NCBI RefSeq assembly: GCF_007833355.1
Contig: NZ_CP020914.1
Location: 1,474,047-1,538,046 of the forward strand
From: Denitratisoma sp. DHT3
GTDB taxonomy: Bacteria; Pseudomonadota; Gammaproteobacteria; Burkholderiales; Rhodocyclaceae
Length of the DNA stretch: 64,000 bases
Reading direction: 5' to 3'
In this document: piece after piece, positions 1,425 to 34,728 of the stretch
Numbering within the stretch: position 1 is the first letter of the stretch
Layout: the number at the start of each line of letters is the position of its first letter
Translations under genes and position numbers: made by a program
Notes under the pieces: model-generated
Database searches by the model: none
What the model saw: the letters and a program-made list of their open reading frames with translations, nothing else
What the model was told of the DNA's origin: nothing

Positions 1425-1425
1425 G

Positions 1426-4366: not shown

Positions 4367-4506
4367 GTCTGTCGCGAAGAGAGGGGCAGGAATACGCGAC
4401 GGCTTGCGGCGTCCTGACGATTTTGAGTATGAGTTTCCACAGCATTCGCTCCTTTTCGACGATGAGCGAATTCTGCGCAACCTCACCTAACGTCATGCTG
4501 ACCGCC

Positions 4507-4526: not shown

Positions 4527-4586
4527 TGCGGGATTGCCCATGTTGCCAGCGCAGAATGGCGCAAATCGCAACACGGGAGAATGCAC

Positions 4587-6655: not shown

Positions 6656-6722
6656 CGTTTCACAAACGGCTATTCGTTGGCAATGTTTTCTGGCCGGAAC
6701 CGTATCACTGACGTCTGGGTTG

Positions 6723-7190: not shown

Positions 7191-7251
7191 GTGTATGACG
7201 CCCCCCTTCAACATTCGCAAACAACCCGTCCGGCGCATGGATTGTAACCAC

Positions 7252-7282
7252 TTGACTCTATAGCCGCTATAGGGTTTTAAAT
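7252..7282 (+). promoter_or_regulatory. MerR-type cadA/pbrA promoter with 19-bp spacer and dyad operator
   Basis: TTGACT (7252-7257) and TTAAAT (7277-7282) are 19 bp apart, the over-long spacing that MerR regulators correct by DNA distortion. Between them lies the dyad ACTCTATAGCCGCTATAGGG, close to the known cadA/pbrA operators. It is read towards the ATPase gene. Confidence 0.85.
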
Positions 7283-7305
7283 GAAGGCTCTTCAGGAGAA
7301 ACATC

Positions 7306-17150: not shown

Positions 17151-17161
17151 GTTCGTGGCAC

Positions 17162-18733
17162 TCAGTGCGCGTGGCCGGCGGCAGCGGCCTTGCTGGTCGA
17201 CAGACGCAACAGATAGGCGCCCTTGCTGACCACCCGCTGGCCCGCTTCCAGCCCGGAGATCACCGCAATCCGGTTACCGTCGCGCGCCCCGGTCTGCACG
17301 ATGCGCCGCTCGAAGCGTGCGCCGCCGATCTGCACATAGACCACCTGAGCGCCGTTCTCGTCCTGCACCGCGCTGGCCGGGATCAATACCGCCTCCTGCC
17401 CGCCGCCGGCAAAGACCTGAATCCGGGCCGTCAGCCCCAGCCGCAGCAAGCGTTCCGGATTGGCAAATTCGAAAATCACCGGCACTGTGCGCGTCTGCGC
17501 ATCGACCATGCCGCCGACGGCGATCAGCGATCCATTGCGGCCGATGTCGATGGCAAAGCCCTGATCGTAGCCATCGACGGTGAAGGCCGCGCCGGTCGGC
17601 TTGCCCAGGCGGCCGATATCGCTTTCCGGCACCCGCGCATCGAGCCAGAGCTTGCCGGTGTTGGCGATATGCAGCAGCGGCGCTCCCTCATTGACGAAAG
17701 CCCCGGCGGCGGCCGTTACCTCGGCGACGATGCCATCCATCGGCGCCTTGAGCGCAATGCCCCCGCTGCCGCCGAGTTGCTGCGCCCGAGCCGTGGCCGC
17801 CTGCACTTCGGCCTGCGCCGTGCGCTCATTCGCCCGTGCATCGAGCAGGCGTTTCTCGGCGACGGCCTCTTCCTTGAACAGCAGCTCCATGCGCTCGCGT
17901 TCGCGCCGGGCCTGTTCGAGCGCCACCTGCGCCTTGCCGGCCGCCGCCTCTAGGCTGGCCTGATCGCTATCGCCACCGAGGCGCGGGCCGAGCACGGCCA
18001 GCACTTGCCCTTTTTTGACCGCCTGCCCGATGCGCGGAAAGCCGTTGACCGCGCGCAGCACGCCAGCGGTCGGCGCCACCAGTTGCGCCTCGCTGCCCGC
18101 TGGCGCCCGGATCGTGCCGGTGGCGGCAATCGCGGTGCGCGCCGTGCCCTTGACCGCTTCCGCCGTGGCGAAATCGATCTTCCACTGCTGTTCCTTGCTG
18201 AAGGGGATGCCTTCCTCGTCATGCGCGTGGCCGCCATGTCCGGACTTGGCAGCGTTCATATCGGCGTAGACGGTCACCGGGCCGAGATCGTGCGTCAGTG
18301 TGCCGAGATCCGATTCCAGGATCACGCTCAACTCGCGCTCGCCAATAATGGTGGGGGTCACTGTTGCCCGGAAAATGCCAGGCACCGCCGGGGCCTCGAC
18401 GATAAAACGCTCGTCGGCAGCAGCCTTCTCACCAGCGAGCACGATAGTCAGCTTGCCTTGCGCGACTGGCTTGAAGTCGGCAAGTCGCGTCAGATGTGCA
18501 GCCAGCGTTGCCGGCTTGCCGACGACCAGGGGCGGGAACTCCAGGAAAAGCTCCGTCTGGTCGGTGAACTGGGTCAGGGTTTCCGGCTCGTCGTGAGCCT
18601 GCGCGGTGGCCGCCGGCTTGCTGCCGTGATCGTCCTTGGCGGTAGTTTTGTCGCCGCAAGCGGACAGGAGCAGGGACAGGGCGACAAGGCCCGCGATCAG
18701 CGATACCTGCGGGGCGATGGATGGAGTCTTCAT
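17162..18733 (-). CDS. czcB: CzcB-type efflux periplasmic adaptor with an extra N-terminal domain
   Basis: Lipoprotein-type membrane-fusion protein of 523 residues (signal MKTPSIAPQVSLIAGLVALS.. ending in lipobox LSAC). Residues about 40-170 form an additional beta domain (QFTDQTELFLEFPPL to GPVTVYADM) that precedes the ordinary adaptor; a His/Asp stretch SGHGGHAHDEEG links them. Then come the barrel-sandwich and hairpin (VKKGQVLAVLG, QVALEQARRERERMELL), beta barrel and a C-terminal membrane-proximal domain ending AAAGHAH. The start overlaps the czcC stop (ATGA). The extra domain and the His-rich ends point to periplasmic metal capture. Confidence 0.92.
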   Translation of the reverse strand: MKTPSIAPQVSLIAGLVALSLLLSACGDKTTAKDDHGSKPAATAQAHDEPETLTQFTDQTELFLEFPPLVVGKPATLAAHLTRLADFKPVAQGKLTIVLAGEKAAADERFIVEAPAVPGIFRATVTPTIIGERELSVILESDLGTLTHDLGPVTVYADMNAAKSGHGGHAHDEEGIPFSKEQQWKIDFATAEAVKGTARTAIAATGTIRAPAGSEAQLVAPTAGVLRAVNGFPRIGQAVKKGQVLAVLGPRLGGDSDQASLEAAAGKAQVALEQARRERERMELLFKEEAVAEKRLLDARANERTAQAEVQAATARAQQLGGSGGIALKAPMDGIVAEVTAAAGAFVNEGAPLLHIANTGKLWLDARVPESDIGRLGKPTGAAFTVDGYDQGFAIDIGRNGSLIAVGGMVDAQTRTVPVIFEFANPERLLRLGLTARIQVFAGGGQEAVLIPASAVQDENGAQVVYVQIGGARFERRIVQTGARDGNRIAVISGLEAGQRVVSKGAYLLRLSTSKAAAAGHAH

Positions 18734-19956
18734 TCGGGATGGCTTCCGGTCAATTGATCGAGTTCGATGCGCGCATCGCGCGCTTTGCCTTCGAGATCGA
18801 GGGCCGTGGTTTCCGCTTCCAGCGCGCCTTTGTAGGCGTCGAGCAGTTCCAGGATGGTCGATTCGCCGGCGCGGTAGGCGGTTTCGGCGATGCGCACCAG
18901 GTCGGCGGAGGGAGCCACGGCCTCGCGGCGGTAGCGCTCGGCGGCGGCAATCAACTGCACCAACTGGCGATGCAGGCCGATCAGCTCGCCCTCGGCCTTC
19001 TGTCTGGTCAGCGCCTGTTCGGCTCGCGCCGCCTGGGCCTGCGCCGCGCTGCGTTGCTCGGCGCCCTGCTGTCGGTCGAAAATCGGCAAGGCCATCGAGA
19101 CCGAAAACAGCGTGCCTGATTCGCGCAGCAGACCGTCGTCGGTGCGCTTGCCGCCGATGCCGACCGTCAGCTCGGGAAAGTTGCGCTGCGCCGCTGCGTG
19201 GTCGGCATTCGCGGCTTCCGCACGGGCCGCTAGCGCGGCCAGGTCCGGGCGTTGCGCCAGGCGCGCCTGCAACGCGGGCAAACCGGCGGGCAGCGTGGGC
19301 AGTAACGCCCCGCTGACGCCTTCCTCCGTGGGTTCCGATCCGATCAGTGCGGCCAGCCGCGCCCGGCTGCGTTCCAGCCCTGCGCGTGCTTCGGCCGTCT
19401 TGGCTTCGGCCGCCTGCTGTTCGCGCGCCAATCGACGCCGGTCATAGCCCGAGGCATCCCCGGCACGCGCCAGCTTGTCGACTACGCTGCCGATGACCGC
19501 GAAGCGCGCCCGCCAGGCGTCCATGACATTCACGGCCAACTGCTGCCGCAGTACCTCATGAAAACTGCGGCGTACCTCGGCCGCACGCTCCACACGCCCG
19601 GTACGGGTGTCGGCTTCTGTGGCGTCGAGCCGCAGGCGTGCCGCGTCCTGCCGCAAGCCACGGCGCCCGGAGACATCGAGCGGCTGGGCCAGGCGCCAGG
19701 CCGTTTCGCGCGATGCCCCGGTTTTATCGCGGGAGAATTCCAGCGCAGGGTTTGCCCAGGTGCTCGCCGCGACCACATCGGCATCCGCTTCGGCGACCCG
19801 TGCGCGGGCCAGTTCGGCGAGTTCGGGACGCGCCAGCGCGCGGCGCAGCGCTTCGCCCTCGGTCAAAGGCGCGGCCAGGCTGGTCAAGGGCGATAGCAGT
19901 CCAATAGCCATAGCTAAGGCTGACGTGCGCCAGAAACTGGGATGTAGGGTAAACAT
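18730..19956 (-). CDS. czcC: CzcC-type outer-membrane efflux channel
   Basis: TolC-family outer-membrane factor, 408 residues. The start at 19956 (MFTLHPSFWRTSALAMAIGLL..SLAAP, signal peptide) has GAGGA 5 bases upstream. Two OEP repeats are visible with the long Ala/Arg-rich coiled helices (LEFSRDKTGASRETAWRLAQ; LAALAARAEAANADHAAAQ) and the usual GESTILELLDAYKGALEAE near the C-terminus. Second gene of the czcICBA-like operon. Confidence 0.92.
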   Translation of the reverse strand: MFTLHPSFWRTSALAMAIGLLSPLTSLAAPLTEGEALRRALARPELAELARARVAEADADVVAASTWANPALEFSRDKTGASRETAWRLAQPLDVSGRRGLRQDAARLRLDATEADTRTGRVERAAEVRRSFHEVLRQQLAVNVMDAWRARFAVIGSVVDKLARAGDASGYDRRRLAREQQAAEAKTAEARAGLERSRARLAALIGSEPTEEGVSGALLPTLPAGLPALQARLAQRPDLAALAARAEAANADHAAAQRNFPELTVGIGGKRTDDGLLRESGTLFSVSMALPIFDRQQGAEQRSAAQAQAARAEQALTRQKAEGELIGLHRQLVQLIAAAERYRREAVAPSADLVRIAETAYRAGESTILELLDAYKGALEAETTALDLEGKARDARIELDQLTGSHPE

Positions 19957-20065
19957 CGAAATCCTCAACGAATGTTGAAAGCAAGGGATTTCGACGGGAC
20001 GTCACCGCAACCCGAACTACGGGTGGGGTGGAAAAACTAATGCCTAGGGAAAGCGCCCCGCCGAA

Positions 20066-20449
20066 TCAGGCGAGGGAATCTCGCGGCGGACGATCAAGCC
20101 CTGCCGGGATAAAAGAGGCAAACGGGGATAAGGGAGGTGCTATTAAAACGTGGTGGCCAAGGTTCGGCGATGAAACCAAATTAGATGCGGTTACAGCGGT
20201 TGCCGTTGTGCTATGCGCATGACAATGACCACCCGAAGACTTCTTGCCTTGCTGTGTATCCGTATCGCCGTTCGCACGCTCATCGGCCATCGTCTCCGAA
20301 ACGCTGTGACTGTGCTGATCTACATGGAAGTGCTGCTCAGACCCACCTTGCGGGAGATGATCGATAGCGTCGCACACACCCGCCACGGCCGCAAAAGCAG
20401 CGTTCAGCGAAAAAATAACGGACAGGAGAATGACGATAAGGGTGCGCAT
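20066..20449 (-). CDS. czcI: CzcI-like small periplasmic protein
   Basis: A 127-residue exported protein with signal peptide MRTLIVILLSVIFSLNAAFA, then Cys (GVCDAI) and His-rich patches (EQHFHVDQHSHS and GGHCHAHS). Position directly in front of czcCBA and the His pattern match CzcI of the Cupriavidus czcICBA operon, whose exact role is a periplasmic accessory or regulatory one. The first 13 codons and the upstream region also occur, interrupted, at 31115-31153. Confidence 0.8.
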   Translation of the reverse strand: MRTLIVILLSVIFSLNAAFAAVAGVCDAIDHLPQGGSEQHFHVDQHSHSVSETMADERANGDTDTQQGKKSSGGHCHAHSTTATAVTASNLVSSPNLGHHVLIAPPLSPFASFIPAGLDRPPRDSLA

Positions 20450-20638
20450 CTGCTGACCATCTTACCGCATCCGAATGAAAACGAGAACCGACAAGGAGAA
20501 CCAAATACACCACTAAACTCCAAACTTCCCGAGAGAGAATTTCGAAATGCGCCCTTTTTGGATCGATTTCGAAATCCGGACCACCCCATTGCAAGCTGTA
20601 ATTGTCGATAGTACTGAATAGTCAGGAATCGACAATGA
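20411..20638. repeat. 228-bp exact direct repeat, copy 1 (czcI start - alpA start)
   Basis: Identical by eye to 31115-31342 (offset 10704). It holds the first 13 codons of czcI on the minus strand, the czcI-alpA divergent promoter region and the alpA start codon. Identity stops one base after the alpA ATG, beyond which the two alpA copies differ at about one base in ten. Confidence 0.9.
20601..20636. promoter_or_regulatory. Inverted repeat over the alpA start, copy 1
   Basis: ATTGTCGA (20601-20608) and TCGACAAT (20629-20636) are inverted around a 20-bp centre; the right arm includes the first two bases of the alpA ATG. It may be an operator or an mRNA hairpin that hides the start. The centre holds CTGAATAGTCAGGAAT, a motif also found at 31318-31333 and 33063-33078. 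Confidence 0.5.
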
Positions 20639-20895
20639 ACAAACCAATACAGGTCAAGCGCTTGATCAGACGAGAAGAACTACTTCGTCTAATCCCACTT
20701 TCCGACTCGGCAATTTACCGGCTCGAAAAGTCCGGTAGCTTTCCCAATAGATTCAATCTAACGCCACGTTGCGTTGTCTGGGATCTTGACGAAGTGGAGG
20801 GCTGGATTCAAGAAAGACGCTCAGCGCTCATCCAATCCCAGCTTTCCCCGGATGTCCAAAAACGCAAATTCAGGCCTGTCCGGAAACAGGCCTGA
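20635..20895 (+). CDS. AlpA-family excisionase/regulator, copy 1
   Basis: An 86-residue MerR-like helix-turn-helix protein (VKRLIRREELLRLIPLSDSA, IYRLEKSGSFPNRF, VVWDLDEVEGWIQERR) of the AlpA/phage CP4-57 regulator family, which typically controls or directs excision of integrative elements. I start it at the ATG 20635. In copy 2 (31339) the corresponding protein sits next to the integrase; here the downstream DNA is replaced by a truncated IS91-type element. The two copies are about 90% identical, so both probably descend from related islands. Confidence 0.85.
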   Translation: MNKPIQVKRLIRREELLRLIPLSDSAIYRLEKSGSFPNRFNLTPRCVVWDLDEVEGWIQERRSALIQSQLSPDVQKRKFRPVRKQA

Positions 20896-20918
20896 CCACT
20901 GGCACCAGCCCGCTCTGT

Positions 20919-21854
20919 TTGCGGCAAAGCCTGCCGGCGGGCGACGGCACGGCACGCATCGGCGCGGTCGTCTTCATCCACCGCTTCGGCGCGCTGATGA
21001 ACGCTCACCTTCACTTCCATGTCATCGTGATCGATGGGATGTTTTGGGGGAAGGAGGCCGCGAGTCTGCATTTCGAGGAGACGCACCTCAGCGCGGAAGC
21101 GCTGGCGCGACTGCAATCGACGCTGCGCAAACGGATCGTCAGTCTTTTCGTTCGGCGCGGCCTGCTCGATTCGGCCGAGGGCGAAGCCCTGCGCCGCTGC
21201 GCGCACGGCGGCGGCTTCTCGCTCGACGCTGGCGTGCGCATCGAAGGGGACGACCGGCAAGGGCGGGAGCGCCTGCTGCGCTACTGCGCCCGCCCGGCCT
21301 TCGCGCAGGAACGGTTGCGGCAGATCGATGCGGAGCACCTCGTCTATGAGAGCCCCAAGCCGGGACCGGGCGGGCGCGTCAGCCAGATCCTGACGCCCCT
21401 CGAACTGCTCGATCGCCTCGCCGCGCTGATCCCGCCGCCCCGGCGCCACCGGCATCGTTACTACGGCGTGCTGGCGCCGAATGCCCCCCTTCGGTCGGCG
21501 GTCACGGCACTGGCAGCGGCGCCGAAGCCACCCTCGGTCGAGGCCGATGCCGTGGCGGAGGAAAGTGCGATCCGTCGGGCGGCGCGCTATGCCTGGGCGC
21601 TCTTGCTGGCGCGCATCTACGAGGTGTTCCCGCTCACCTGCCCAAAGTGCGGCGGCGCGATGCGGATCATCGCCTTCATCGACGAGGGCGAGGCGATCCG
21701 AAAGATCCTCCAGCACCTGGGCGAGCCGATCGAACCGCCCAAGTTGGCCCCGGCGCGCGGCCCGCCGCTGTGGGAGGCGGCGGGACAGGGCCACGCCGAT
21801 CCGCTGGCGCAGTCAATCCCCGAGTTCGAGTTCGATCAGCGGATCGCGTGGTAG
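20919..21854 (+). pseudogene. IS91-family (ISCR20-like) transposase, N-terminally truncated
   Basis: Encodes about 311 residues starting in the region LRQSLPAGDGTARIGAVVF, with the HUH-type metal site HLHFHVIVIDG, the tyrosine motif RYYGVLAPN, a late zinc knuckle CPKCGGAM and the natural C-terminus FDQRIAW. The N-terminal zinc finger and about 155 residues present in copies B and C are absent, along with the promoter. Confidence 0.9.
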
Positions 21855-21888
21855 CGGACGGCGGCGAACGCCGCCCGACGGGAACGCT

Positions 21889-21944
21889 CTTGCCCGAGGC
21901 CCGCAATACGCCCGACAGAGGGCGTATTGCGGGCCTCGGGCAAG
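21889..21944. repeat. 25-bp perfect hairpin at the oriIS end, copy A
   Basis: Arms 21889-21913 and 21920-21944 (starting CTTGCCCGAGGCCCGC) are perfect inverted repeats around the 6-base loop GACAGA; a smaller GGCGGCG/CGCCGCC hairpin lies just before it. It sits 35 bases after the transposase stop, where IS91-type elements carry the origin of rolling-circle transfer. The same hairpin is at 30946-31001 in copy C. Confidence 0.8.
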
Positions 21945-22205
21945 GTTGGGCAGCGGTTGTTGCACGGCGCAATGAGCGATTGCGGACAATTTTCCAATTG
22001 ACGATGGGTTACGGGTGCGGAGATACTTCCGGGATGGCGGTTGAATTTCCTATCCGTCACTACTCATGCGACCTAACGACTGCGATTATCTAAGATTAGA
22101 AACATTTAGCCATCATAGCAGAGCAAGTTCCGACCCCTTGCAATTAGCCTTTCTCTGTTCCCGAAGTCTGCCAACGGGCATTGACCACGGGGACTTGAAC
22201 GCACT

Positions 22206-22994
22206 CTACCCCAACGCATTCTGCACCCGCAGCCCATCTGCCAAGGCCTGCACATCGTGCGTGCGGATGTAGTCCGCTCCATTGGCGAATGCAAATAGCT
22301 CCGCAGCCAGCGTAGCCGCAGCCCGCTCCGCCACCGGGCGACCGCCCACCAACGCACCCAGAAAGCTCTTGCGCGATACCGATACATACAGCGGCAACCC
22401 GTAGCGCTCCCGCAATTGGGGCAGACGCCGCAGCAGCAGCACCGAGGCCTGCGGATTAGCCCCCAGAAAAAATCCCATGCCCGGATCAAGGATCAGGCGC
22501 TCGCGCGCGATACCCGCGCCCGTAAGAGCCGCAATCCGGCGATCAAAGAAATCGATGACACTCTGCCAGACTTGCTCCGGCTCCACATCGCGGCGGTCGG
22601 CCACCAGTGCCCCGGCCAGCGAGTGCATAACTACCAGCTGGCAGTGCGCGCGCGCCAACTCAGGCCACAGCGCCGGCTCACCGAAACCGCGGATGTCATT
22701 GAGCATCGCCAGCTGCTGCCCCAGCGCCCAGCGGATCACCTGCGGCTCTGTGGCATCTACGCTGATGCGGCTGTGCTCGAGCGCCGCTACGACGGGCGCC
22801 AGCCGTGCGATCTGCTCGGTGGCACTGACGGGCGCGGCATCGGGGTTACTGCTGGCCGGGCCCAGGTCCACATAGTGGGCGCCCTGCCCCAGCAGCTCGC
22901 GGGCGTGCTGCAGCGCGCGCTGCGGGTCGAGGTAGTGCCCCCCGTCCGAGAAGGAGTCCGTGGTCAGATTGACGATGCCGATGATCGCGGTCAC
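22206..22994 (-). CDS. sul4: Sulfonamide-insensitive dihydropteroate synthase, Sul-family (sul4-like)
   Basis: A 262-residue pterin-binding TIM-barrel enzyme condensing dihydropterin pyrophosphate with p-aminobenzoate. It starts at GTG 22994 (TAIIGIVNLTTDSFSDGG). Sul-type signatures are DLGPASSNPDAAPVS, LNDIRGFGEPAL, LVVMHS, LILDPGMGFFLGANP, VSVSRKSFLGALVGG and ADYIRTHD. These are nearer to mobile Sul enzymes than to chromosomal FolP, but it is none of Sul1, Sul2 or Sul3 as I know them. Together with ISCR20-like transposases and a Chloroflexi-style palindrome upstream, sul4 is the best reading. About 150 bp between its stop and the IS end at 22055 hold no gene. A partial copy (first ~94 codons) is at 23502-23783. 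Confidence 0.78.
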   Translation of the reverse strand: MTAIIGIVNLTTDSFSDGGHYLDPQRALQHARELLGQGAHYVDLGPASSNPDAAPVSATEQIARLAPVVAALEHSRISVDATEPQVIRWALGQQLAMLNDIRGFGEPALWPELARAHCQLVVMHSLAGALVADRRDVEPEQVWQSVIDFFDRRIAALTGAGIARERLILDPGMGFFLGANPQASVLLLRRLPQLRERYGLPLYVSVSRKSFLGALVGGRPVAERAAATLAAELFAFANGADYIRTHDVQALADGLRVQNALG

Positions 22995-23024
22995 AGGCTC
23001 AGTATGCCAGATTGGATATCGGGC

Positions 23025-23066
23025 GTGTAGCGTAGGGGCAAGGCATGCCTTGCCCCTACGCTACAC
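23025..23066. repeat. 42-bp perfect palindrome between sul and the GH94-like gene
   Basis: Two 21-base arms with no loop (centre between 23045 and 23046; core GGGGCAAGGCATGCCTTGCC). It lies in the 135-bp divergent region and is repeated by the tandem duplication at 23814-23855. Palindromes of the GTAGGGGC...GCCCCTAC type are, from memory, common between genes of Chloroflexi and some cyanobacteria, so it is a clue to the donor. Confidence 0.8.
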
Positions 23067-23129
23067 TCACGCACGCATGGCAACGAGATTGGTTTGGTGA
23101 AATAATCAGGGCTTACGGGGCGTCGTTCC

Positions 23130-23501
23130 ATGCACAAACAAATATCCGTCCTCCTGCTCTGCCTGCTCCCACTGGCATCCTGCACCGAAACGCGCGTGCC
23201 CAATCCCGCACCCGTATTGACCCCCGGCGACGGAGGCAAATTCGGGCACTGGACCATGGATTCGGCTCTGGGCCCGGTCTTTAACTACACCCGGCCTGAG
23301 GGTGTGACCTACACCACCAGCTACGGTACCTCCGACCTGCACATGCACCTGATCGGCAACCAGAGCCTGAATGCCTTTGTCCGTCCAGAGGGCGGCGCCG
23401 ACATCATCATCCGCGACCCGGGCCTGCTGTGGCTGACCCGCGACCCCATCCGCCAGGCCCATCTGGCGGACGGCGCTGCGGTCGTACTGCCCGATGGCCA
23501 G
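23130..23501 (+). pseudogene. 5' fragment of the GH94-like lipoprotein gene (duplicate)
   Basis: Identical to the first 124 codons of the full gene at 23919, including the lipoprotein signal. At 23501 it runs into the antisense strand of the sul fragment, so the frame continues to 23819 as nonsense sequence. A product of the tandem duplication. Confidence 0.85.
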
Positions 23502-23783
23502 CTGCTGCCCCAGCGCCCAGCGGATCACCTGCGGCTCTGTGGCATCTACGCTGATGCGGCTGTGCTCGAGCGCCGCTACGACGGGCGCCAGCCGTGCGAT
23601 CTGCTCGGTGGCACTGACGGGCGCGGCATCGGGGTTACTGCTGGCCGGGCCCAGGTCCACATAGTGGGCGCCCTGCCCCAGCAGCTCGCGGGCGTGCTGC
23701 AGCGCGCGCTGCGGGTCGAGGTAGTGCCCCCCGTCCGAGAAGGAGTCCGTGGTCAGATTGACGATGCCGATGATCGCGGTCAC
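23502..23783 (-). pseudogene. N-terminal fragment of the sul4-like gene (duplicate)
   Basis: Carries the first ~94 codons of the dihydropteroate synthase from the GTG at 23783 and then reads into the antisense of the GH94-like gene, ending at 23106. It lacks the DPGMGFF and SRKSF segments, so it is inactive. Confidence 0.88.
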
Positions 23784-23813
23784 AGGCTCAGTATGCCAGA
23801 TTGGATATCGGGC

Positions 23814-23855
23814 GTGTAGCGTAGGGGCAAGGCATGCCTTGCCCCTACGCTACAC
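23814..23855. repeat. 42-bp perfect palindrome, duplicate copy
   Basis: The second copy of the palindrome at 23025-23066, 789 bp further on; it precedes the full-length GH94-like gene. Confidence 0.8.
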
Positions 23856-23918
23856 TCACGCACGCATGGCAACGAGATTGGTTTGGTGAAATAATCAGGG
23901 CTTACGGGGCGTCGTTCC

Positions 23919-26405
23919 ATGCACAAACAAATATCCGTCCTCCTGCTCTGCCTGCTCCCACTGGCATCCTGCACCGAAACGCGCGTGCCCAATCCCGCAC
24001 CCGTATTGACCCCCGGCGACGGAGGCAAATTCGGGCACTGGACCATGGATTCGGCTCTGGGCCCGGTCTTTAACTACACCCGGCCTGAGGGTGTGACCTA
24101 CACCACCAGCTACGGTACCTCCGACCTGCACATGCACCTGATCGGCAACCAGAGCCTGAATGCCTTTGTCCGTCCAGAGGGCGGCGCCGACATCATCATC
24201 CGCGACCCGGGCCTGCTGTGGCTGACCCGCGACCCCATCCGCCAGGCCCATCTGGCGGACGGCGCTGCGGTCGTACTGCCCGATGGCCAGCGCATTGCCA
24301 TACCCTCCGCAGGGGTGGGTGCCACCTACACCACTGAGGCTGAGTTTGGGCTTGGATTTGTGCGCTTCGCACCTACGCAGGTCCGCAGTGGCTCCGTCGA
24401 GCTCGAGATCACACGCACCCTGCACGCACCCGACTCGGATGAGCAGGCACTGGTCGCCACCACCACTCTGCGCAATATGTCGGATGCCAGTGTGACTGTG
24501 GAGTTTGAGGAGCGCTGGAGCGCTGCGATGATTCCGATGCTCTATGGCCTGACCAACGAATCAGCCTTCGATGACCGCGCCGAGTTCCGCGATGCGACAG
24601 ATTTTGCCCGAACTGTGGATGCAACTAGCCAGCAGATCGTACCCGCAGTTGCGCGCGCCCCGCGCACGGCACCCGCCGACCTGGGCTATTACCCACCCCT
24701 GATACTGGCAGCCCTCACGACCGGTGGCACACCCGTCGAGACCGCCGGGGACGTGCACTTGCCTACTCCCATGACCCTGCGCTGGCAGCTCACCCTGCAG
24801 CCCGGTGCCAGCCAGACAGTTGCCGCCAGCTTCGGCACCACGATCCCTACTGCGCCGGGTGAGCCGGAACAGGCTGCGGCGGCTCTGTACGCCGAGGGCC
24901 TGCACCTGCATGGCGCGCAGATTCCGGACTGGCTCAGCCGCGAGCTGCAGTGGCATGCCGGACAGATCCGTCAATCGACGATGTACGATGGCGCCACCGG
25001 AAATCAAGTCATCGGCCAGGGCTCGGCCTACCTGTACCTGCATGGACTGGACGGTGCCCAGCGCGACTATATTCACTTCGTGGTGGCGCTGGCGCTGGTG
25101 GATCCGGAGTTGGCCAGGGATCTGCTGCGCTACAGCCTGCAGATGGTGGATACCAGCGGCCACCGCTACTACGCCGTCTCCGGCTACGGCATCTACGACG
25201 ATGCCGTGATCCACACCGAGTCCACCGACCTGGACCTATTTATCCTGCTGGGTGTGAGCTACTACGTATTGGCCACGCGTGATTTTGACTTTCTGGACGA
25301 GGCGGTGGCCGTGGACATCGGGCCGCTGCAGAGCGGTACACGCACGGTGCTGGAGCACCTGCGCGTGGCGCTGCGGCACGTGGCGGAGACTACGGGCTTC
25401 GGTCCCCATGGGCTGCTGCGGGTGGGTACGGGCGACTGGTCGGACGGTGTAATTTTTCACAGCCAGGATCAGGAAACCGCCCTCAGCTCAGGTGAGAGTG
25501 TCTACAATACGGCGATGGGCGCCTATGTGCTGCCCATGGCCGCCGAGGCCGTGGCGGCCGCCGACGCCACCCTGAGTGCTCATATGAGCGCGTGGGCTGT
25601 GACTCTGGCGACGGCTACGCAGTCCGCGTGGGACGCGCAGGCCGGCTGGTACCTGCGCGGCTACGGCGGGCCGGATGACCCGCTGGGCGGCACAGATCGC
25701 ATCTTCCTGGAGCATCAGCCCTGGGCATTGCTGGCCGAGCTGGGCAGTGTGGAGCAGCGCCGCGAACTGATCGACAATATCTGGACCACGCTGGACGAGC
25801 CCAGCCCGATCGGTCCACTGCAGATGTACCCACCCACCGAGGAGGCCGCCGCGGTGCTCACGCCCGGCTGGGACGTAAATGGTGGCATCTGGCCGGCGGT
25901 GCATATGTGGACTGTGCCGGCCTACGCCACACTGGACCCGGATAAAGCATGGCAGTCCATGCTGCGTGGCACCTACGCAGCGCACGCCCGCGCCTACCCG
26001 GACATCTGGTACGGCATCTGGAGTGGCCCGGACAGCTACAACGCGCACTATGCCACCCGCCCAGGTCAGACCTTCGAGCACATTGCCACGGCGATGATTG
26101 ATTTCCCGATGGCCAACATGAACTCGGACGCGGCACCGCTGTATATGGCTACTACGATGGCGGGCATCCAGCCCACGGCCTCGGGCATTACAGTCGATCC
26201 CAAACTGCCCGGAGAGGATTTCAGCTACCGCACACGCTGGATCTCGGTGGCCTATGCGCCCGATCAGATCACGCTGGACTACAGTCAGCGACGCCGCGCT
26301 GGCGCTGATCGCCGAAGCCGGCTTCGACCCGGTGTTCGGCGCGCGGCCCTTGAAGCGCGCGATTCAGGAGCGCATCGAGAATCCGCTTTCGCGGCTAATT
26401 CTTGA
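23919..26405 (+). CDS. Lipoprotein with GH94-like six-hairpin glycoside domain, 3' end replaced
   Basis: About 788 native residues from [18 protein letters not shown] (lipobox LASC), then a beta-sandwich half (about 30-340) and an alpha/alpha-barrel half. The motifs [41 protein letters not shown] and [15 protein letters not shown] resemble GH94/cellobiose-phosphorylase-like and related exported carbohydrate enzymes. At about 26283 native sequence ends (DQITLDYSQ) and the frame continues through a ClpB gene fragment in the wrong frame to a stop at 26405. Codon style and the neighbouring palindrome differ from the betaproteobacterial host, suggesting capture from the same donor as sul. Activity and substrate cannot be stated. 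Confidence 0.72.
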
Positions 26406-26478
26406 CGGCACGCTGGGCGCCAAGGATCGTGTGAAGGTCGAAGCGACGAAGGGGCAGATCAGCTTTGTGAAGGTCTGA
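26284..26478 (+). pseudogene. 3' end of a foreign clpB gene
   Basis: The last ~64 codons of a ClpB chaperone ([37 protein letters not shown], ending GQISFVKV), fused to the truncated GH94-like gene. It is not a copy of the host clpB at the right end of the window, whose tail differs ([17 protein letters not shown], ending LLFEKT). It lies directly upstream of the IS91-type transposase, so an ISCR element once sat behind clpB in another bacterium. Confidence 0.88.
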
Positions 26479-28016
26479 GCGCCTGCTGCGTTCGCCGCCC
26501 GCAAACGGCGAATCCGGCGGAATGGATCTCGTGCCATTCCCGGCGCCGTGTTGCCAGCGCCGACTTTCGGACAGCATCGCAGGCACCCGAAGGCGGCCGG
26601 ACATGGTGGCTTGCTTCGATAGCTGTATGCGCATACAGTTTCCCATCCCGATCCCCCGATCAGGATGCGCATGCCCACCCAAGCCGCAAAGCCCTGCCAA
26701 GAGGCGACCGTCTATCAACGCCGGCGCCCGGAACGAACGCTGCTCTACCGGCTCGTGCAAACGCATCTCGCCACCTGGCTGGCGCTGCAGGACGACGCTG
26801 CGGGCCGCACTGTCCCGGCGCTGAGCGAACGCGAATTCCGCCGCTACCTCGACTGCGGCATCCTCGCCCACGGCTTTGCCCGTGCCCGCTGCGCCGACTG
26901 CGGTCACGATTTCATCGTCGCCTACTCCTGCAAGGGTCGTGGCGTCTGCCCCTCTTGCACCACCCGGCGCATGGTCGAAACCGCCGCCCATCTGGTCGAT
27001 CACGTCTTCCCCGCCCTGCCGGTGCGGCAGTGGGTGCTCTCGCTGCCGAAACGGCTGCGCTACCACCTCGACGACGCCAAACTGCAGAACGCCGTGCTGC
27101 ACAGCTTTCTGCGCGCCATCGAGCAGGGCTTGCGGCAAAGCCTGCCGGCGGGCGACGGCACGGCACGCATCGGCGCGGTCGTCTTCATCCACCGCTTCGG
27201 CGCGCTGATGAACGCTCACCTTCACTTCCATGTCATCGTGATCGATGGGATGTTTTGGGGGAAGGAGGCCGCGAGTCTGCATTTCGAGGAGACGCACCTC
27301 AGCGCGGAAGCGCTGGCGCGACTGCAATCGACGCTGCGCAAACGGATCGTCAGTCTTTTCGTTCGGCGCGGCCTGCTCGATTCGGCCGAGGGCGAAGCCC
27401 TGCGCCGCTGCGCGCACGGCGGCGGCTTCTCGCTCGACGCTGGCGTGCGCATCGAAGGGGACGACCGGCAAGGGCGGGAGCGCCTGCTGCGCTACTGCGC
27501 CCGCCCGGCCTTCGCGCAGGAACGGTTGCGGCAGATCGATGCGGAGCACCTCGTCTATGAGAGCCCCAAGCCGGGACCGGGCGGGCGCGTCAGCCAGATC
27601 CTGACGCCCCTCGAACTGCTCGATCGCCTCGCCGCGCTGATCCCGCCGCCCCGGCGCCACCGGCATCGTTACTACGGCGTGCTGGCGCCGAATGCCCCCC
27701 TTCGGTCGGCGGTCACGGCACTGGCAGCGGCGCCGAAGCCACCCTCGGTCGAGGCCGATGCCGTGGCGGAGGAAAGTGCGATCCGTCGGGCGGCGCGCTA
27801 TGCCTGGGCGCTCTTGCTGGCGCGCATCTACGAGGTGTTCCCGCTCACCTGCCCAAAGTGCGGCGGCGCGATGCGGATCATCGCCTTCATCGACGAGGGC
27901 GAGGCGATCCGAAAGATCCTCCAGCACCTGGGCGAGCCGATCGAACCGCCCAAGTTGGCCCCGGCGCGCGGCCCGCCGCTGTGGGAGGCGGCGGGACAGG
28001 GCCACGCCGATCCGCT
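26479..28016 (+). mobile_element. IS91/ISCR-type element, copy B (oriIS end lost)
   Basis: From the end of clpB through the terIS-side leader (26479-26664, no gene; contains the promoter and LexA-like site) and nearly all of the transposase. The oriIS end with its hairpin is missing because the duplication joint falls inside the last codons. The exact terIS base cannot be set, since both copies with this side share the same clpB flank. Confidence 0.75.
26611..26639 (+). promoter_or_regulatory. Transposase promoter with overlapping LexA-box-like palindrome, copy B
   Basis: TTGCTT (26611-26616) and TACAGT (26634-26639), 17 bp apart, could be -35 and -10. The perfect 16-bp palindrome CTGTATGCGCATACAG (26623-26638) fills the spacer and covers the -10. 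It fits CTGT-N8-ACAG, the LexA consensus of beta/gammaproteobacteria. The ATG of the transposase is 26 bp further on. Confidence 0.6.
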
Positions 28017-28131
28017 TCAGGAGCGCATCGAGAATCCGCTTTCGCGGCTAATTCTTGACGGCACGCTGGGCGCCAAGGATCGTGTGAAGGTCGAAGCGAC
28101 GAAGGGGCAGATCAGCTTTGTGAAGGTCTGA
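26665..28131 (+). CDS. IS91-family (ISCR20-like) transposase fused to ClpB C-terminus
   Basis: A 488-residue frame: transposase residues 1-451 and, after GHADP, 37 residues of the ClpB tail in ClpB's own reading frame. The transposase has an N-terminal zinc finger (CADCGHDFIVAYSCKG, CPSCTTRRM), the HUH metal site HLHFHVIVIDG, RYYGVLAPN with the catalytic-type tyrosines and a late CPKCGGAM. Only the last 16 native residues are replaced, so the enzyme may still work on an oriIS in trans. Two starts are possible (26665 or 26671). Confidence 0.88.
   Translation: MRMPTQAAKPCQEATVYQRRRPERTLLYRLVQTHLATWLALQDDAAGRTVPALSEREFRRYLDCGILAHGFARARCADCGHDFIVAYSCKGRGVCPSCTTRRMVETAAHLVDHVFPALPVRQWVLSLPKRLRYHLDDAKLQNAVLHSFLRAIEQGLRQSLPAGDGTARIGAVVFIHRFGALMNAHLHFHVIVIDGMFWGKEAASLHFEETHLSAEALARLQSTLRKRIVSLFVRRGLLDSAEGEALRRCAHGGGFSLDAGVRIEGDDRQGRERLLRYCARPAFAQERLRQIDAEHLVYESPKPGPGGRVSQILTPLELLDRLAALIPPPRRHRHRYYGVLAPNAPLRSAVTALAAAPKPPSVEADAVAEESAIRRAARYAWALLLARIYEVFPLTCPKCGGAMRIIAFIDEGEAIRKILQHLGEPIEPPKLAPARGPPLWEAAGQGHADPLQERIENPLSRLILDGTLGAKDRVKVEATKGQISFVKV
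28017..28131 (+). pseudogene. clpB tail fragment, second copy
   Basis: The last ~38 codons of the same foreign clpB, created by the 1653-bp duplication and read in frame with transposase copy B. Confidence 0.88.
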
Positions 28132-28275
28132 GCGCCTGCTGCGTTCGCCGCCCGCAAACGGCGAATCCGGCGGAATGGATCTCGTGCCATTCCCGGCGCC
28201 GTGTTGCCAGCGCCGACTTTCGGACAGCATCGCAGGCACCCGAAGGCGGCCGGACATGGTGGCTTGCTTCGATAG

Positions 28276-28291
28276 CTGTATGCGCATACAG
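28276..28291 (+). promoter_or_regulatory. LexA-box-like palindrome, copy C
   Basis: The same CTGTATGCGCATACAG as at 26623-26638, in front of the interrupted transposase gene. Confidence 0.6.
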
Positions 28292-28813
28292 TTTCCCATC
28301 CCGATCCCCCGATCAGGATGCGCATGCCCACCCAAGCCGCAAAGCCCTGCCAAGAGGCGACCGTCTATCAACGCCGGCGCCCGGAACGAACGCTGCTCTA
28401 CCGGCTCGTGCAAACGCATCTCGCCACCTGGCTGGCGCTGCAGGACGACGCTGCGGGCCGCACTGTCCCGGCGCTGAGCGAACGCGAATTCCGCCGCTAC
28501 CTCGACTGCGGCATCCTCGCCCACGGCTTTGCCCGTGCCCGCTGCGCCGACTGCGGTCACGATTTCATCGTCGCCTACTCCTGCAAGGGTCGTGGCGTCT
28601 GCCCCTCTTGCACCACCCGGCGCATGGTCGAAACCGCCGCCCATCTGGTCGATCACGTCTTCCCCGCCCTGCCGGTGCGGCAGTGGGTGCTCTCGCTGCC
28701 GAAACGGCTGCGCTACCACCTCGACGACGCCAAACTGCAGAACGCCGTGCGGTAATCCCCCCACAGGTTAAGTGACGGCGAAAGTAGAATTTTCTCGTGA
28801 GAGGGAGTTCTGC

Positions 28814-29080
28814 ATGAAGAAATCGAAATTCAGTGACAGCCAGATCATGGAAGCGCTCAAACGCGTTGAGGCTGGGCTGTCGGTGCCGGAGTTGTGTCGG
28901 GAGCTGGGGATCAGTTCGGCGACGTTCTACAAGTGGCGTGCCAAGTACGGCGGCATGGATGCGCCGATGATCTCGCGGATGAAGGAACTGGAGCTGGAGA
29001 ACGCCCGGCTCAAGAAGATGTACGCCGAGGAACGTCTCAAAGCCGAGATTCTCAAGGAGGCTATGGCAAAAAAGTGGTGA
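28814..29080 (+). CDS. IS407-group transposase OrfA
   Basis: An 88-residue helix-turn-helix protein ([39 protein letters not shown]) with a C-terminal leucine-zipper-like helix ([20 protein letters not shown]). It ends KKW at 29080. The A6G run at 29068-29074 is a typical -1 frameshift signal for making the OrfAB transposase. Confidence 0.93.
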
Positions 29081-29901
29081 GGCCATCGCGCCGCCGCGAG
29101 ATGGCCAAACAAGTCGTTACCGACAGAAAAGTGCCGATCCGAACCGCCTGCGCCATATTCTCGATCAGCGAGACCTGCTACCGGTACGAAGCGAAGCAGG
29201 ACGCCGAGAATGCACTAATTGAGGATTGGTTGGTCCGGCTGACCACGAACCAGCGCAACTGGGGGTTCGGCTTGTGCTACCTGTACCTGCGCAACGTCAA
29301 GGGATTTCGCTGGAACCATAAGCGGGTGTATCGGATTTATCGGGAGTTGGAACTGAACCTGCGGATCAAACCCAAAAAGCGTCTTCAGAGGGAGAAGCCT
29401 GAACCGCTCGCGGTACCCTTCGCCATCAATCAGGTCTGGTCGATGGATTTCATGCATGATCAGTTGGAGGATGGTCGGAACTTCCGGCTATTCAATGTCA
29501 TCGACGACTTCAACCGGGAAGCCTTGGGCATGGAGATCGATTTCTCGTTGCCCTCCGCTCGCATCATCCGGGCGCTGGACCAGATCATTGAGTGGCGCGG
29601 TAAGCCCGGTGCCCTGCGCTGTGACAATGGTCCGGAAAACATCAGCGGCCTGATCCAGGCCTGGGCCGACAGGCAGGGTATCCGGATCGATTACATTCAG
29701 CCCGGCAAGCCACAACAGAATGCCTACGTTGAACGTTTCAATCGCACGGTACGTTACGAGTGGCTGTCGCAATACCTGTGGTCAGGCCTCGACGAAGTCC
29801 GGTTGGCAGCGACCCGCTGGATGTACAACTACAATCATCACCGCCCACACATGGCCTTGGGCGGCTTCACCCCGAAACAGCGGCTGGCCATGGCCGCTTA
29901 A
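29074..29901 (+). CDS. IS407-group transposase OrfB (DDE catalytic part)
   Basis: About 275 residues, normally made as OrfAB by frameshift at 29068-29074 (in-frame GTGs at 29074/29077 and an ATG at 29101 are also possible starts). It has an HTH_21 region ([20 protein letters not shown]) and an rve integrase core with the DDE residues in [15 protein letters not shown] and [14 protein letters not shown]. It ends [13 protein letters not shown]. Confidence 0.93.
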
Positions 29902-30945
29902 CTCTACTTGCGGCGTCGCCTAAAAATGGGGGGATTACCGTGCTGCACAGCTTTCTGCGCGCCATCGAGCAGGGCTTGCGGCAAAGCCTGCCGGCGGGCG
30001 ACGGCACGGCACGCATCGGCGCGGTCGTCTTCATCCACCGCTTCGGCGCGCTGATGAACGCTCACCTTCACTTCCATGTCATCGTGATCGATGGGATGTT
30101 TTGGGGGAAGGAGGCCGCGAGTCTGCATTTCGAGGAGACGCACCTCAGCGCGGAAGCGCTGGCGCGACTGCAATCGACGCTGCGCAAACGGATCGTCAGT
30201 CTTTTCGTTCGGCGCGGCCTGCTCGATTCGGCCGAGGGCGAAGCCCTGCGCCGCTGCGCGCACGGCGGCGGCTTCTCGCTCGACGCTGGCGTGCGCATCG
30301 AAGGGGACGACCGGCAAGGGCGGGAGCGCCTGCTGCGCTACTGCGCCCGCCCGGCCTTCGCGCAGGAACGGTTGCGGCAGATCGATGCGGAGCACCTCGT
30401 CTATGAGAGCCCCAAGCCGGGACCGGGCGGGCGCGTCAGCCAGATCCTGACGCCCCTCGAACTGCTCGATCGCCTCGCCGCGCTGATCCCGCCGCCCCGG
30501 CGCCACCGGCATCGTTACTACGGCGTGCTGGCGCCGAATGCCCCCCTTCGGTCGGCGGTCACGGCACTGGCAGCGGCGCCGAAGCCACCCTCGGTCGAGG
30601 CCGATGCCGTGGCGGAGGAAAGTGCGATCCGTCGGGCGGCGCGCTATGCCTGGGCGCTCTTGCTGGCGCGCATCTACGAGGTGTTCCCGCTCACCTGCCC
30701 AAAGTGCGGCGGCGCGATGCGGATCATCGCCTTCATCGACGAGGGCGAGGCGATCCGAAAGATCCTCCAGCACCTGGGCGAGCCGATCGAACCGCCCAAG
30801 TTGGCCCCGGCGCGCGGCCCGCCGCTGTGGGAGGCGGCGGGACAGGGCCACGCCGATCCGCTGGCGCAGTCAATCCCCGAGTTCGAGTTCGATCAGCGGA
30901 TCGCGTGGTAGCGGACGGCGGCGAACGCCGCCCGACGGGAACGCT

Positions 30946-31001
30946 CTTGCCCGAGGCCCGCAATACGCCCGACAGAGGGCGTATTGCGGGCCTCGGGCAA
31001 G
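30946..31001. repeat. 25-bp perfect hairpin at the oriIS end, copy C
   Basis: The same structure as at 21889-21944, 9057 bp further on, 35 bases after the transposase stop of copy C. Confidence 0.8.
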
Positions 31002-31114
31002 GTTGGGCACCGGTTGTTGCACGGCGCAATGAGCGATTGCGGACAATTTTCCAATTGACGATGGGTTACGGGTGCGGAGATACTTCCGGGATGGCGGTTG
31101 AATTTCCTATCCTT

Positions 31115-31153
31115 AAAAATAACGGACAGGAGAATGACGATAAGGGTGCGCAT
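31115..31153 (-). pseudogene. 5' remnant of a second czcI gene
   Basis: The first 13 codons of czcI (MRTLIVILLSVIF) starting at 31153, cut by the oriIS end of IS copy C at 31112. It shows that a second czcI-alpA arrangement existed here. Confidence 0.85.
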
Positions 31154-31342
31154 CTGCTGACCATCTTACCGCATCCGAATGAAAACGAGAACCGACAAGG
31201 AGAACCAAATACACCACTAAACTCCAAACTTCCCGAGAGAGAATTTCGAAATGCGCCCTTTTTGGATCGATTTCGAAATCCGGACCACCCCATTGCAAGC
31301 TGTAATTGTCGATAGTACTGAATAGTCAGGAATCGACAATGA
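31115..31342. repeat. 228-bp exact direct repeat, copy 2
   Basis: Copy of 20411-20638, ending one base after the start codon of the second alpA gene. The inverted repeat over the alpA start recurs at 31305-31340. Confidence 0.9.
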
Positions 31343-31599
31343 GCAAACCAATTCAGGTCAAGCGCTTGATCAGACGCGAAGAACTACTTCGTCTCATCCC
31401 GCTTTCCGACTCGGCAATTTACAGACTCGAAAAGTCGGGAGGCTTTCCGAATAGATTCCATCTGACGCCACGCTGTGTTGTATGGGACCTTGACGAAGTG
31501 GAGAGCTGGATCCAAGAAAGACGCACAGCCCTCATCCAATCACAGCTTTCCCCGGATGTCCAAAAACGCAAATTCAGACCTGTCCGAAAACAGGCCTGA
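31339..31599 (+). CDS. AlpA-family excisionase/regulator, copy 2 (next to integrase)
   Basis: An 86-residue helix-turn-helix protein (MSKPIQVKRLIRREELLR) about 90% identical to the copy at 20635. It converges with the integrase gene, 34 bp apart. It probably acts as recombination directionality factor or regulator for the island integrase; this follows from the family and the position. Confidence 0.87.
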   Translation: MSKPIQVKRLIRREELLRLIPLSDSAIYRLEKSGGFPNRFHLTPRCVVWDLDEVESWIQERRTALIQSQLSPDVQKRKFRPVRKQA

Positions 31600-31633
31600 C
31601 GCCGACACCAGCCAGCTCGGAAACCTCTGATTT

Positions 31634-32869
31634 CTACGCCGCCGCGCGGGAGGGGCGATGAATGGGTGTGATTTCTTTCCCAGCAATCCACGCATCGACC
31701 AAGTTTGCCCATTGCTGGAGCATGTCCTTGCGTTGATCCGCATACTCTGCCTTGTTGTAGATGGCCCTGACTCCCTTCTGTTCATGGGCCAAGCATTTCT
31801 CAATCCAGTCGGTATTGAAGCCCGCTTCATGCAACAGCGTTGAACCCGTTCGGCGGAGATCGTGAACGGTGAAATCGTCCAGCAGCAAATCCTTTTTCTT
31901 CGCATGCTCGACCGTGACAGTTATAACGCGGTTGAGGGTATTGTTGGACATCCCCTTGTCACCCTCATACCGGGACGGCAAGATGAAATTGGATCCGCCT
32001 GCGCAAGTCTTCAGCGCAATCATGATGTCCATGGCTTGGTCGGGCAAGTAGATAACATGGGGTCTTCTGGCCTTCATTCTCTGTGCGGGGATGGTCCACT
32101 TGGCGCCAACGAAATCCATCTCATCCCAAGTCGCATTGAGAAGCTCCCCCTTGCGGACAAGCGTAAGAAGAACAAGCTTCAGCGCCAACCGGATTGTTGG
32201 CAGAGTCGGTACCAAATCCAACTCCTGGAAGAAAATCCTGATTTCATCTGGGGAAAGCGCCCGATCTTTGGGCTTGAAGGTCGCGATCGAGGATGCCCTG
32301 ACATCATCAGCAGGATTTGCGACCTTGTGGCCACGTTCAATCGCAAACCTGAAAACCTGAGCAACGATATCCCGGATATGAACGGCCGTTGCCGGTGCAT
32401 TGCGCTGAGTCTTGACCCGTTCGCACAGTGCCCTCAAATCTTCAGCCGCGATTTCCTTGAGAAGGCGTCGGCCAAACTCGGGCTCGATATCGCGATCAAT
32501 GACAGATTTCCTCATGTCCCGGGTACTGTCCGCCATGCGATATTCCTTCAGCCACAGAGTCGAGAACTCGCCGAAAGTTTTGGCTGCTTTCGACTTCTGA
32601 ATCGAACGCTGTTTTTCCTTTGCCGGTGACTTCCCCTCAGCAATCTCCCTCTTGACTCCGATCAGTTTTTCCCTGGCCTCGCCCAAGGTAAGACCTTCTG
32701 GACCGTATTGACCAAGAACAAGAGTTTCGCGCCGACCGTTGAGTCGATAGTCGTATCGGAAGGAAACAACTCCTGACGGGGTAACCGCCACATAGAGGCC
32801 GTCACGATCGACCAGCTTGTACAACTTGCCGGTCGGCTTGAGGTTCTTCAGTTGAGTATCGGTAAGCAT
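31634..32869 (-). CDS. P4-type tyrosine site-specific integrase
   Basis: A 411-residue tyrosine recombinase that integrates and excises the island. The N-terminal DUF4102-type arm-binding domain (LTDTQLKNLKPTGKLYKLVD, YRLNGRRETLVLGQYG) is followed by a SAM-like core-binding domain and a catalytic domain with Arg in LVRKGELL, the HxxR box HDLRRTG, HEQKG and the nucleophile Tyr in AIYNKAEY. Its 5' end faces the 3' end of guaA about 290 bp away and it is transcribed away from guaA, the usual layout for an element at that site. Confidence 0.93.
   Translation of the reverse strand: MLTDTQLKNLKPTGKLYKLVDRDGLYVAVTPSGVVSFRYDYRLNGRRETLVLGQYGPEGLTLGEAREKLIGVKREIAEGKSPAKEKQRSIQKSKAAKTFGEFSTLWLKEYRMADSTRDMRKSVIDRDIEPEFGRRLLKEIAAEDLRALCERVKTQRNAPATAVHIRDIVAQVFRFAIERGHKVANPADDVRASSIATFKPKDRALSPDEIRIFFQELDLVPTLPTIRLALKLVLLTLVRKGELLNATWDEMDFVGAKWTIPAQRMKARRPHVIYLPDQAMDIMIALKTCAGGSNFILPSRYEGDKGMSNNTLNRVITVTVEHAKKKDLLLDDFTVHDLRRTGSTLLHEAGFNTDWIEKCLAHEQKGVRAIYNKAEYADQRKDMLQQWANLVDAWIAGKEITPIHRPSRAAA

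Positions 32870-33162: not shown

Positions 33163-34728
<1,566 letters not shown>

Follow-up and report, generated by a model that had tools for sequence, protein, structure and literature searches.

The sul-type gene and its relatives

We analyzed a 64,000-nucleotide stretch (the window; G000:C1:1474047-1538046) of the single-contig, 3.66-Mb genome of Denitratisoma sp. DHT3, which contains a gene for a dihydropteroate synthase (DHPS) of the class of the mobile sulfonamide resistance proteins Sul1, Sul2, and Sul3. This sul-type gene (22206 to 22994, minus strand) encodes 262 amino acids from a GTG start and was assigned to the Sul1-3 class by profile scores and alignment. It is divergent from a glycoside hydrolase family 94 (GH94)-like gene, and the two form a block that extends from position 22056, directly after the terminus of an ISCR-like element, to approximately 26280, where a clpB 3' end is followed by a transposase. 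Metal-efflux genes lie to the left of the block, and a GIsul2-type integrase lies at guaA on its right.

The predicted protein matched the Pfam Pterin_bind model with 201 bits (cutoff, 25.5), identifying it as a DHPS. Among the NCBIfam models, it scored 290 bits for Sul2, 286 for Sul3, 243 for Sul1, 241 for DHPS in general, and 100 for Sul4; the curated cutoffs are 575, 475, 600, and 600 bits for Sul2, Sul3, Sul1, and Sul4, respectively. As it falls below all three Sul1-3 cutoffs, we do not name it Sul1, Sul2, or Sul3, and surveys that use these models (243 to 290 bits against 475 to 600) probably would not report the gene. In BLASTP comparisons, the protein was 56% identical to Sul2, 50% to Sul3, 49% to Sul1, 40% to the FolP of the host, and 32% to Sul4 (33% in a global alignment), Sul4 being the most distant of these five references. 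An alignment that included Sul4 from an Aeromonas plasmid sul4 gene revealed a two-residue Sul insertion with Phe in helix alpha-6 (DPGMGFFLG; the window protein reads DPGMGFFLGANPQA), residues that are missing from Sul4 (DPGIGF--GK) and from the host FolP (DPGFGF--GK).

A study of sul origins likewise describes the insertion as present in Sul1-3 but missing from Sul4, and it reports that two cloned chromosomal genes bearing it conferred sulfamethoxazole resistance (PMC6335563). A second study shows the helix alpha-6 Phe to be required for the resistance of Sul enzymes, used Sul1-3 to complement an E. coli K-12 delta-folP strain, and gives four as the usual count of mobile sul genes (PMC10328974). 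By analogy with the enzymes in this literature, the window DHPS would be expected to confer sulfonamide resistance.

An earlier note on this DNA had placed the gene in the mobile Sul class, and the insertion motif, the Sul-class scores, and the 49 to 56% identity to Sul1-3 bear this out. Its label of Sul4-like had to be abandoned, because the identity to Sul4 is below that to the host FolP and the Sul4 model score is 100 bits against a cutoff of 600; we rejected Sul4 as the identity of the protein on these grounds. That note had also considered that the protein might prove closer to a FolP, and it is instead nearer to Sul1-3. The host has its own folP at a separate locus (G000:C1:1103868-1104584), with an unbroken frame, without the Sul insertion, and presumably in an ftsH-folP-glmM arrangement, judging from open reading frames (ORFs) named by recognition.

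We then asked how close the known relatives are. A second Sul-type DHPS was absent from two genomes of the same genus, which have only FolP (38 to 41%). Of 60 host relatives examined, G035 alone had a second DHPS match (56%; L098). In the tree described below this protein is Sul2, on a branch of at most 0.004 from plasmid Sul2, so that a member of the host's family carries Sul2. A scan of one genome per species across 84,980 species yielded 447 DHPS relatives; in the best 80, which were analyzed, the closest were 59% identical (one was 60% in the MAFFT alignment). Because the scan patterns include part of the DPGMGF motif, the presence of the motif in the matches is due partly to selection. 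Even so, the scan should have picked up a close relative of the window gene. None of the 5,000 best records of a plasmid search reached 60% identity to the window DHPS. Matches of the whole block to plasmids were at approximately 70% DNA identity over 8% of the block, with sul2 in those listed (8 of 4,349 records), and megablast found no near relative of the block in Escherichia coli genomes. A sequence-pattern search of viral contigs for near relatives gave three candidate stretches, none of which was confirmed. For a sample of the Myxococcota phylum, the 20 top-ranking DHPS matches were examined; DPGMGFF was present in 16 of them, and identity was at most 58%. We recognized no description of the window gene in the literature searched, where “sul5” was the name of a clone.

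In a 107-row tree whose bootstrap had not fully settled, the window gene paired with L017, a metagenome-assembled genome (MAG) labeled Planctomycetota (94/83, not starred). It fell outside a starred 88-row set (96/85) that contains Sul1, Sul2 with Parvibaculum, and Sul3 with Bacteroidota rows. Branching near it were L019 and L027 (Deltaproteobacteria MAGs, Myxococcota by the taxonomy used), L151, L153, and L155 (rows from the Myxococcota-phylum sample), and L039. The last (8001 to 8777) is a deep gene of the folP* type, as we call chromosomal genes with the insertion, in a MAG titled Klebsiella pneumoniae, a title that is probably wrong. An approximately unbiased (AU) test on 45 of the tree rows rejected a clade of the window gene with Sul1, Sul2, Parvibaculum, and Sul3 (P = 7.5e-6), which is a weak statement because Sul1-3 themselves are not one clade; a grouping of the window gene with L017 and the Myxococcota rows was not rejected (P = 0.39). 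As judged by sequence comparison, the window sul lineage is distinct.

The ISCR-like element and the GH94-like gene

Transposase pieces of the IS91/ISCR type lie on both sides of the sul-type gene, as the earlier note had seen, and the three transposase ORFs scanned matched the Pfam Y2_Tnp model with 110 to 112 bits (cutoff, 20.9). On the left, a 3' fragment (20919 to 22055, plus strand) has its terminus at 22055 and differs at 1 position in 1,137 bp from 29976 to 31112. On the right, copy C (26665 to 28131, plus strand) is nearly complete, with its C-terminal end and terminus replaced by a repeated clpB fragment, and another copy (28318 to 31112, plus strand) is split by an IS3 element and has its terminus at 31112. 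No transposase copy in the window is both intact and joined to its terminus, and the block is therefore unlikely to move on its own at present.

The closest protein found to copy C is the transposase of Aeromonas plasmid NZ_CP087267.1 (74% identity over 451 positions), followed by ISPps1-type transposases (approximately 50%) and ISVsa3/ISCR2 (35%); a transposase fragment beside a sul4 gene was 29% identical. These comparisons, which concern the nearest transposases and not ISCR20 itself, leave the earlier term ISCR20-like unsupported. A 2025 paper assigns nearly all of the sul4 modules that it describes to ISCR28, not ISCR20 (PMC12772301). Copy C scored 275 bits for ISCR clade Ia (cutoff, 925) and 99 bits for the IS91 family (cutoff, 125), and its Aeromonas relative scored 275 and 105 bits. 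Because both proteins fail both cutoffs, we refer to the element as ISCR-like.

The 17-mer GGTTGAATTTCCTATCC ends at both 22055 and 31112, with 0 occurrences expected by shuffling. Its comparison defined two oriIS-like termini on the plus strand, one adjoining the sul block (22039 to 22055) and one adjoining the alpA2 flank described below (31096 to 31112). The same 17-mer recurs 3' of the Aeromonas transposase, where other DNA follows and a CMY-1/MOX-type AmpC gene begins approximately 200 bp on; when the final 109 bases of the element were searched against plasmids, only this record matched. On this one outside example, the terminus behaves in sequence as a fixed end of the element. The 17-mer was also present in three viral contigs, none with a transposase match, and only L184 shared more sequence ahead of it, judged by eye. 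The Aeromonas unit (L164, 8007 to 10970), comprising the ISCR-like transposase and AmpC, is on an Aeromonas veronii plasmid from a hospital sewage source.

The GH94-like ORF (23919 to 26405, plus strand) matched the Pfam Glyco_hydro_94 model with 74.1 bits (cutoff, 27) and a cellobiose phosphorylase in the PDB with an E value of 2.7e-11. Its last 42 or so codons, from approximately 26280, are an out-of-frame clpB 3' end, so that the gene itself (23919 to 26279) has lost its 3' end and the frame merely continues to 26405. The earlier description of a divergent GH94-like lipoprotein gene thus stands for the domain and the orientation, with a lipoprotein-type N terminus recognized by eye, but the gene is truncated. 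With the intergenic region, it accompanies sul as extra, apparently captured donor DNA, in agreement with that note. Between the divergent starts lies a perfect 42-bp palindrome (23025 to 23066, with a second copy at 23814 to 23855). Its 26-bp core had a single IMG/VR viral contig as its only match (L181, 6507 to 6532); it is uninformative as a donor fingerprint and gives no clear indication about Chloroflexi.

Relatives of the GH protein were found in 30 of 398 genomes of the host's own phylum (taken as Pseudomonadota) at an E value of 1e-3, the host included; the best match outside the host covered the catalytic domain with an E value of 5.3e-13, and none of the 397 other genomes had a strong match. 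A sample of 282 genomes from the phylum of a Polyangiaceae MAG (Myxococcota), picked as the sample center since a GH match had already been found there, gave 21 matches at 1e-3, 15 of them better than 1e-40, the best being 44% identical over approximately 470 residues (E = 2.0e-103). In 148 genomes from the phylum of a Binatota MAG, two matched at 1e-20, including G1187 (43%, E = 1.7e-107). No match at 1e-20 was found in 199 genomes from the phylum of a Planctomycetota MAG or in 198 from that of a Lewinella, both without a positive control. In a 37-row tree, for which the program warned of long branches, the window protein and its Myxococcota- and Binatota-phylum relatives formed a set of 16 rows (88/98, not starred). 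A 100/100 split separated this set from 18 rows comprising the own-phylum GH94 proteins and five weakly matching Myxococcota-phylum rows. The grouping with Betaproteobacteria that the earlier note had weighed was therefore not what we found. Together, the GH and sul sequences point moderately to a Myxococcota- or Binatota-like donor lineage; the Chloroflexi origin raised in the earlier note is unsupported by these samples, which covered other phyla.

The clpB 3' fragment (26280 to 26479, plus strand), partly repeated at 28013 to 28132, best fits the same-family genome G021 among 120 genomes of the order (149 bits, versus 114 for the host's own clpB). Since the element carries the clpB end of a relative in the host's family, it probably sat in such a bacterium earlier. 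Later rearrangement is evident in a tandem duplication with a period of 789 bp (22705 to 24291), in which 22705 to 23502 recurs at 23494 to 24291 with 99.9% identity and a short shared sequence at the junction. Repeat comparison identified within it an additional sul 5' end, truncated to approximately 97 codons (23494 to 23783, minus strand), and a 5' fragment of the GH94-like gene with a duplicated start at 23130 (23130 to 23502, plus strand). A second tandem duplication, with a period of 1,653 bp, repeats the clpB end and the transposase, and overlapping partial transposase copies are among the near-exact repeats of the region. At 99.9 to 100% identity, the tandem repeats are recent or, less likely, assembly errors. 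By eye, the IS3-family insertion (28751 to 29939, plus strand) has terminal inverted repeats and is flanked by a repeat of 4 bp.

The guaA island, metal-efflux genes, and other sul loci

A tyrosine integrase gene (31634 to 32869, minus strand) encodes a protein 60.7% identical to the GIsul2 integrase. It lies beside a gene that we take, from its sequence, to be guaA, at the 3' end of which is GAGTGGGA, matching the published GIsul2 site (33167 to 33174, minus strand). The GIsul2-type integrase compared is on a plasmid of ATCC 17978 with alpA, repA/repC, ars, ISVsa3, and sul2. Between the window integrase and one of NZ_CP076808.1 the identity is 63%, and the convergent alpA of the window is seen there too. 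Two alpA flanks that are 94% identical in repeat comparison, one on the left (20411 to 20915; alpA1, 20602 to 20895, plus strand) and one on the right (31115 to 31618; alpA2, 31306 to 31599, plus strand), bracket the element and are perhaps two related islands in tandem. The right flank starts, by eye, within a copy of the 5' end of the czcI-like gene. A second att site was not found in the window plus 80 kb to its left and 20 kb to its right, where the site has a single copy; we therefore call the island GIsul2-like only.

To the left of the block are czcICBA-like metal-efflux genes (13989 to 20449, minus strand), of which czcA and the czcB-type adaptor gene exceeded their cutoffs and the czcI- and czcC-type genes did not. 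The metal genes on this side include CzcA (813 bits; cutoff, 701), a heavy-metal P-type ATPase (592; cutoff, 346), a heavy-metal sensor kinase (501; cutoff, 293), and a CadR-type regulator (182; cutoff, 151). The earlier note counted three metal-efflux blocks beside sul; the proximity is real, and the case is weaker for the leftmost resistance-nodulation-division block, in which the ORFs for the adaptor and the outer-membrane component scored under the cutoff. Positions 1 to 9488 of the window are present at 83% identity in the same-genus genome G001, which has no sul gene, and this part thus occurs independently of the sul block. Metal resistance and sul could be co-selected.

The scan also met other sul loci. 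Identical Sul-motif DHPS proteins occur in a Lewinella (L050, 8001 to 8780), a Bacteroidia MAG (L051, 3488 to 4267), and a Phaeodactylibacter (L057, 2254 to 3033), with DNA 98.6 to 99.8% identical over approximately 2.2 kb and a Sul3 model score of 343 bits (cutoff, 475). In L057, CatB, EreD, and Tet(X) genes, all above curated cutoffs, adjoin the DHPS gene. It appears to be a further mobile sul. A different Sul-motif DHPS is likewise nearly identical (98.7 to 100% DNA identity over approximately 1.3 kb) among L059, L066, L070, L071, and L073, five genomes labeled Bacteroidota or Ignavibacteriota. A gene in a rumen MAG labeled Alphaproteobacteria (L021, 1777 to 2565) pairs with Sul3 (100/93), and genes of Prevotellaceae and Paludibacteraceae MAGs (L009, 8001 to 8780; L016, 8001 to 8765) adjoin this pair in the tree; L021 and its neighbors are a possible lead on the sul3 donor.

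Origin of the block and comparison with known systems

The best explanation as a whole, which we consider quite probable, is that the window gene is foreign and gives the host an additional DHPS, one that belongs to the sulfonamide-insensitive Sul1-3 class and comes from a lineage apart from Sul1, Sul2, Sul3, and Sul4. Membership in the Sul family, ISCR-type capture, and the presence of donor DNA are supported. By analogy with solved Sul enzymes, the Phe inserted in helix alpha-6 would keep para-aminobenzoic acid binding and exclude sulfonamides, and the foreign enzyme would let folate synthesis go on when the host's own FolP is blocked. The sul-type gene and the divergent GH gene were probably captured by one-ended rolling-circle transposition of the ISCR-like element. 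The block starts exactly at one terminus, upstream of the next transposase copy, as such a capture would leave it. The captured block would now be lodged beside the GIsul2-type integrase at guaA, adjoining heavy-metal efflux genes.

Several points weigh against this explanation. The gene was found in one genome only, so its mobility is judged from its context, and its predicted role in resistance is argued from related enzymes. The AU test did not reject a grouping of the window gene with Sul2 and Parvibaculum (P = 0.15) or a basal place beside canonical FolP (P = 0.40). Both window termini lie in one 1,137-bp repeat, which makes the Aeromonas record the single independent example of the terminus, and the repeats, which are of a kind that assemblers handle poorly, could in part be assembly errors. 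No GH match was found in the 80 folP* loci, and a DHPS search of 22 short GH loci (approximately 1.5 kb of flank) gave nothing beyond two pieces at an E value of 0.83; as sul and GH were not found side by side elsewhere, a single donor for both is our inference.

We weighed these points together with other origins of the gene. A Sul4-type gene brought from Chloroflexi by an ISCR20-like element would fit a mobile-looking DHPS adjoining an ISCR-type element, but the protein scores far below the Sul4 model cutoff, is less similar to Sul4 than to the host FolP, and has no Sul4-type gap, and its transposase is closest to an unnamed Aeromonas element, so that this origin is very improbable. Equally hard to credit is the view that the gene is the host lineage's own FolP or a duplicate of it: the DHPS fold and a GC content near that of host genes would suit it, but the host's own folP lies elsewhere, same-genus genomes have FolP only, and the motif and the tree place differ. 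It is less remote, if still unlikely, that the captured donor DNA brought a DHPS that owes its insensitivity to ancestry and that, in this host, is not under selection and gives no useful resistance. Chromosomal folP* genes occur without drug selection, according to passages of PMC6335563; the surroundings are rearranged and immobile, and the resistance is a prediction from related enzymes. Against this, the gene was kept at full length while transposase and GH copies decayed, and it sits among metal-resistance genes. As to the donor, a Binatota-like or other unsampled lineage, such as Chloroflexota, in place of Myxococcota is a serious possibility, albeit one that we do not favor. The Binatota-phylum GH match is as good as the best from the Myxococcota phylum, the nearest row in the DHPS tree is labeled Planctomycetota, and no folP* gene above 59 to 60% was found; yet both genes have Myxococcota-phylum relatives, five DHPS rows from that phylum branch near the window gene, and the GH search of the Planctomycetota phylum, which lacked a positive control, was empty.

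On the preferred explanation, a foreign gene of the Sul1-3 class acquired by ISCR-type capture, we tentatively advance a broader proposal whose parts may hold jointly. The locus would record a further independent mobilization, in which a Sul1-3-class gene took neither the Rhodobiaceae nor the Leptospiraceae route, these being the donor families proposed in PMC6335563. It would have come from a Myxococcota- or Binatota-like donor on a separate ISCR-like lineage with a relative beside a plasmid AmpC in Aeromonas, and unrelated sul and ISCR units would land repeatedly in guaA islands of the GIsul2 type. A further lineage with donor DNA and capture junctions would allow the capture step to be read directly, and the known donor pool of sulfonamide insensitivity would widen past those two families. 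The Sul1-3 class and ISCR-like elements are already known; the capture anatomy here is unusually clear, and the window lineage appears to be new.

Comparison with known systems sets out what is shared and what differs. The window DHPS has the two-residue insertion and the DPGMGFF motif in common with Sul1, Sul2, Sul3, and chromosomal folP* proteins, but it stands on a separate branch, under the Sul1-3 model cutoffs, and no near relative of it was found. Like Sul4, it is a DHPS beside an ISCR-type element, but the two are only 33% identical, Sul4 is without the insertion, and the integron context belongs to Sul4. The GH ORF shares a catalytic-domain match with GH94 phosphorylases and differs from them in its lipoprotein-type N terminus (by eye), its place off the own-phylum GH94 rows, and its truncation. 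The element of A. veronii pHD6448-1 has a Y2 transposase 74% identical to that of the window and the same terminal 17-mer, whereas ISPps1 and ISVsa3/ISCR2 are more distant; all window copies are damaged. GIsul2 shares with the window a related integrase with an adjacent alpA, GAGTGGGA at the 3' end of guaA, and the combination of sul with an ISCR-type element. The sul and transposase genes are different from those of its CR2-sul2 unit, and alpA is convergent to int in the window, whereas it is in line with int in the GIsul2 record. That one layout, sul plus an ISCR-type element plus a guaA island, recurs although the sul and transposase sequences differ would point to convergence.

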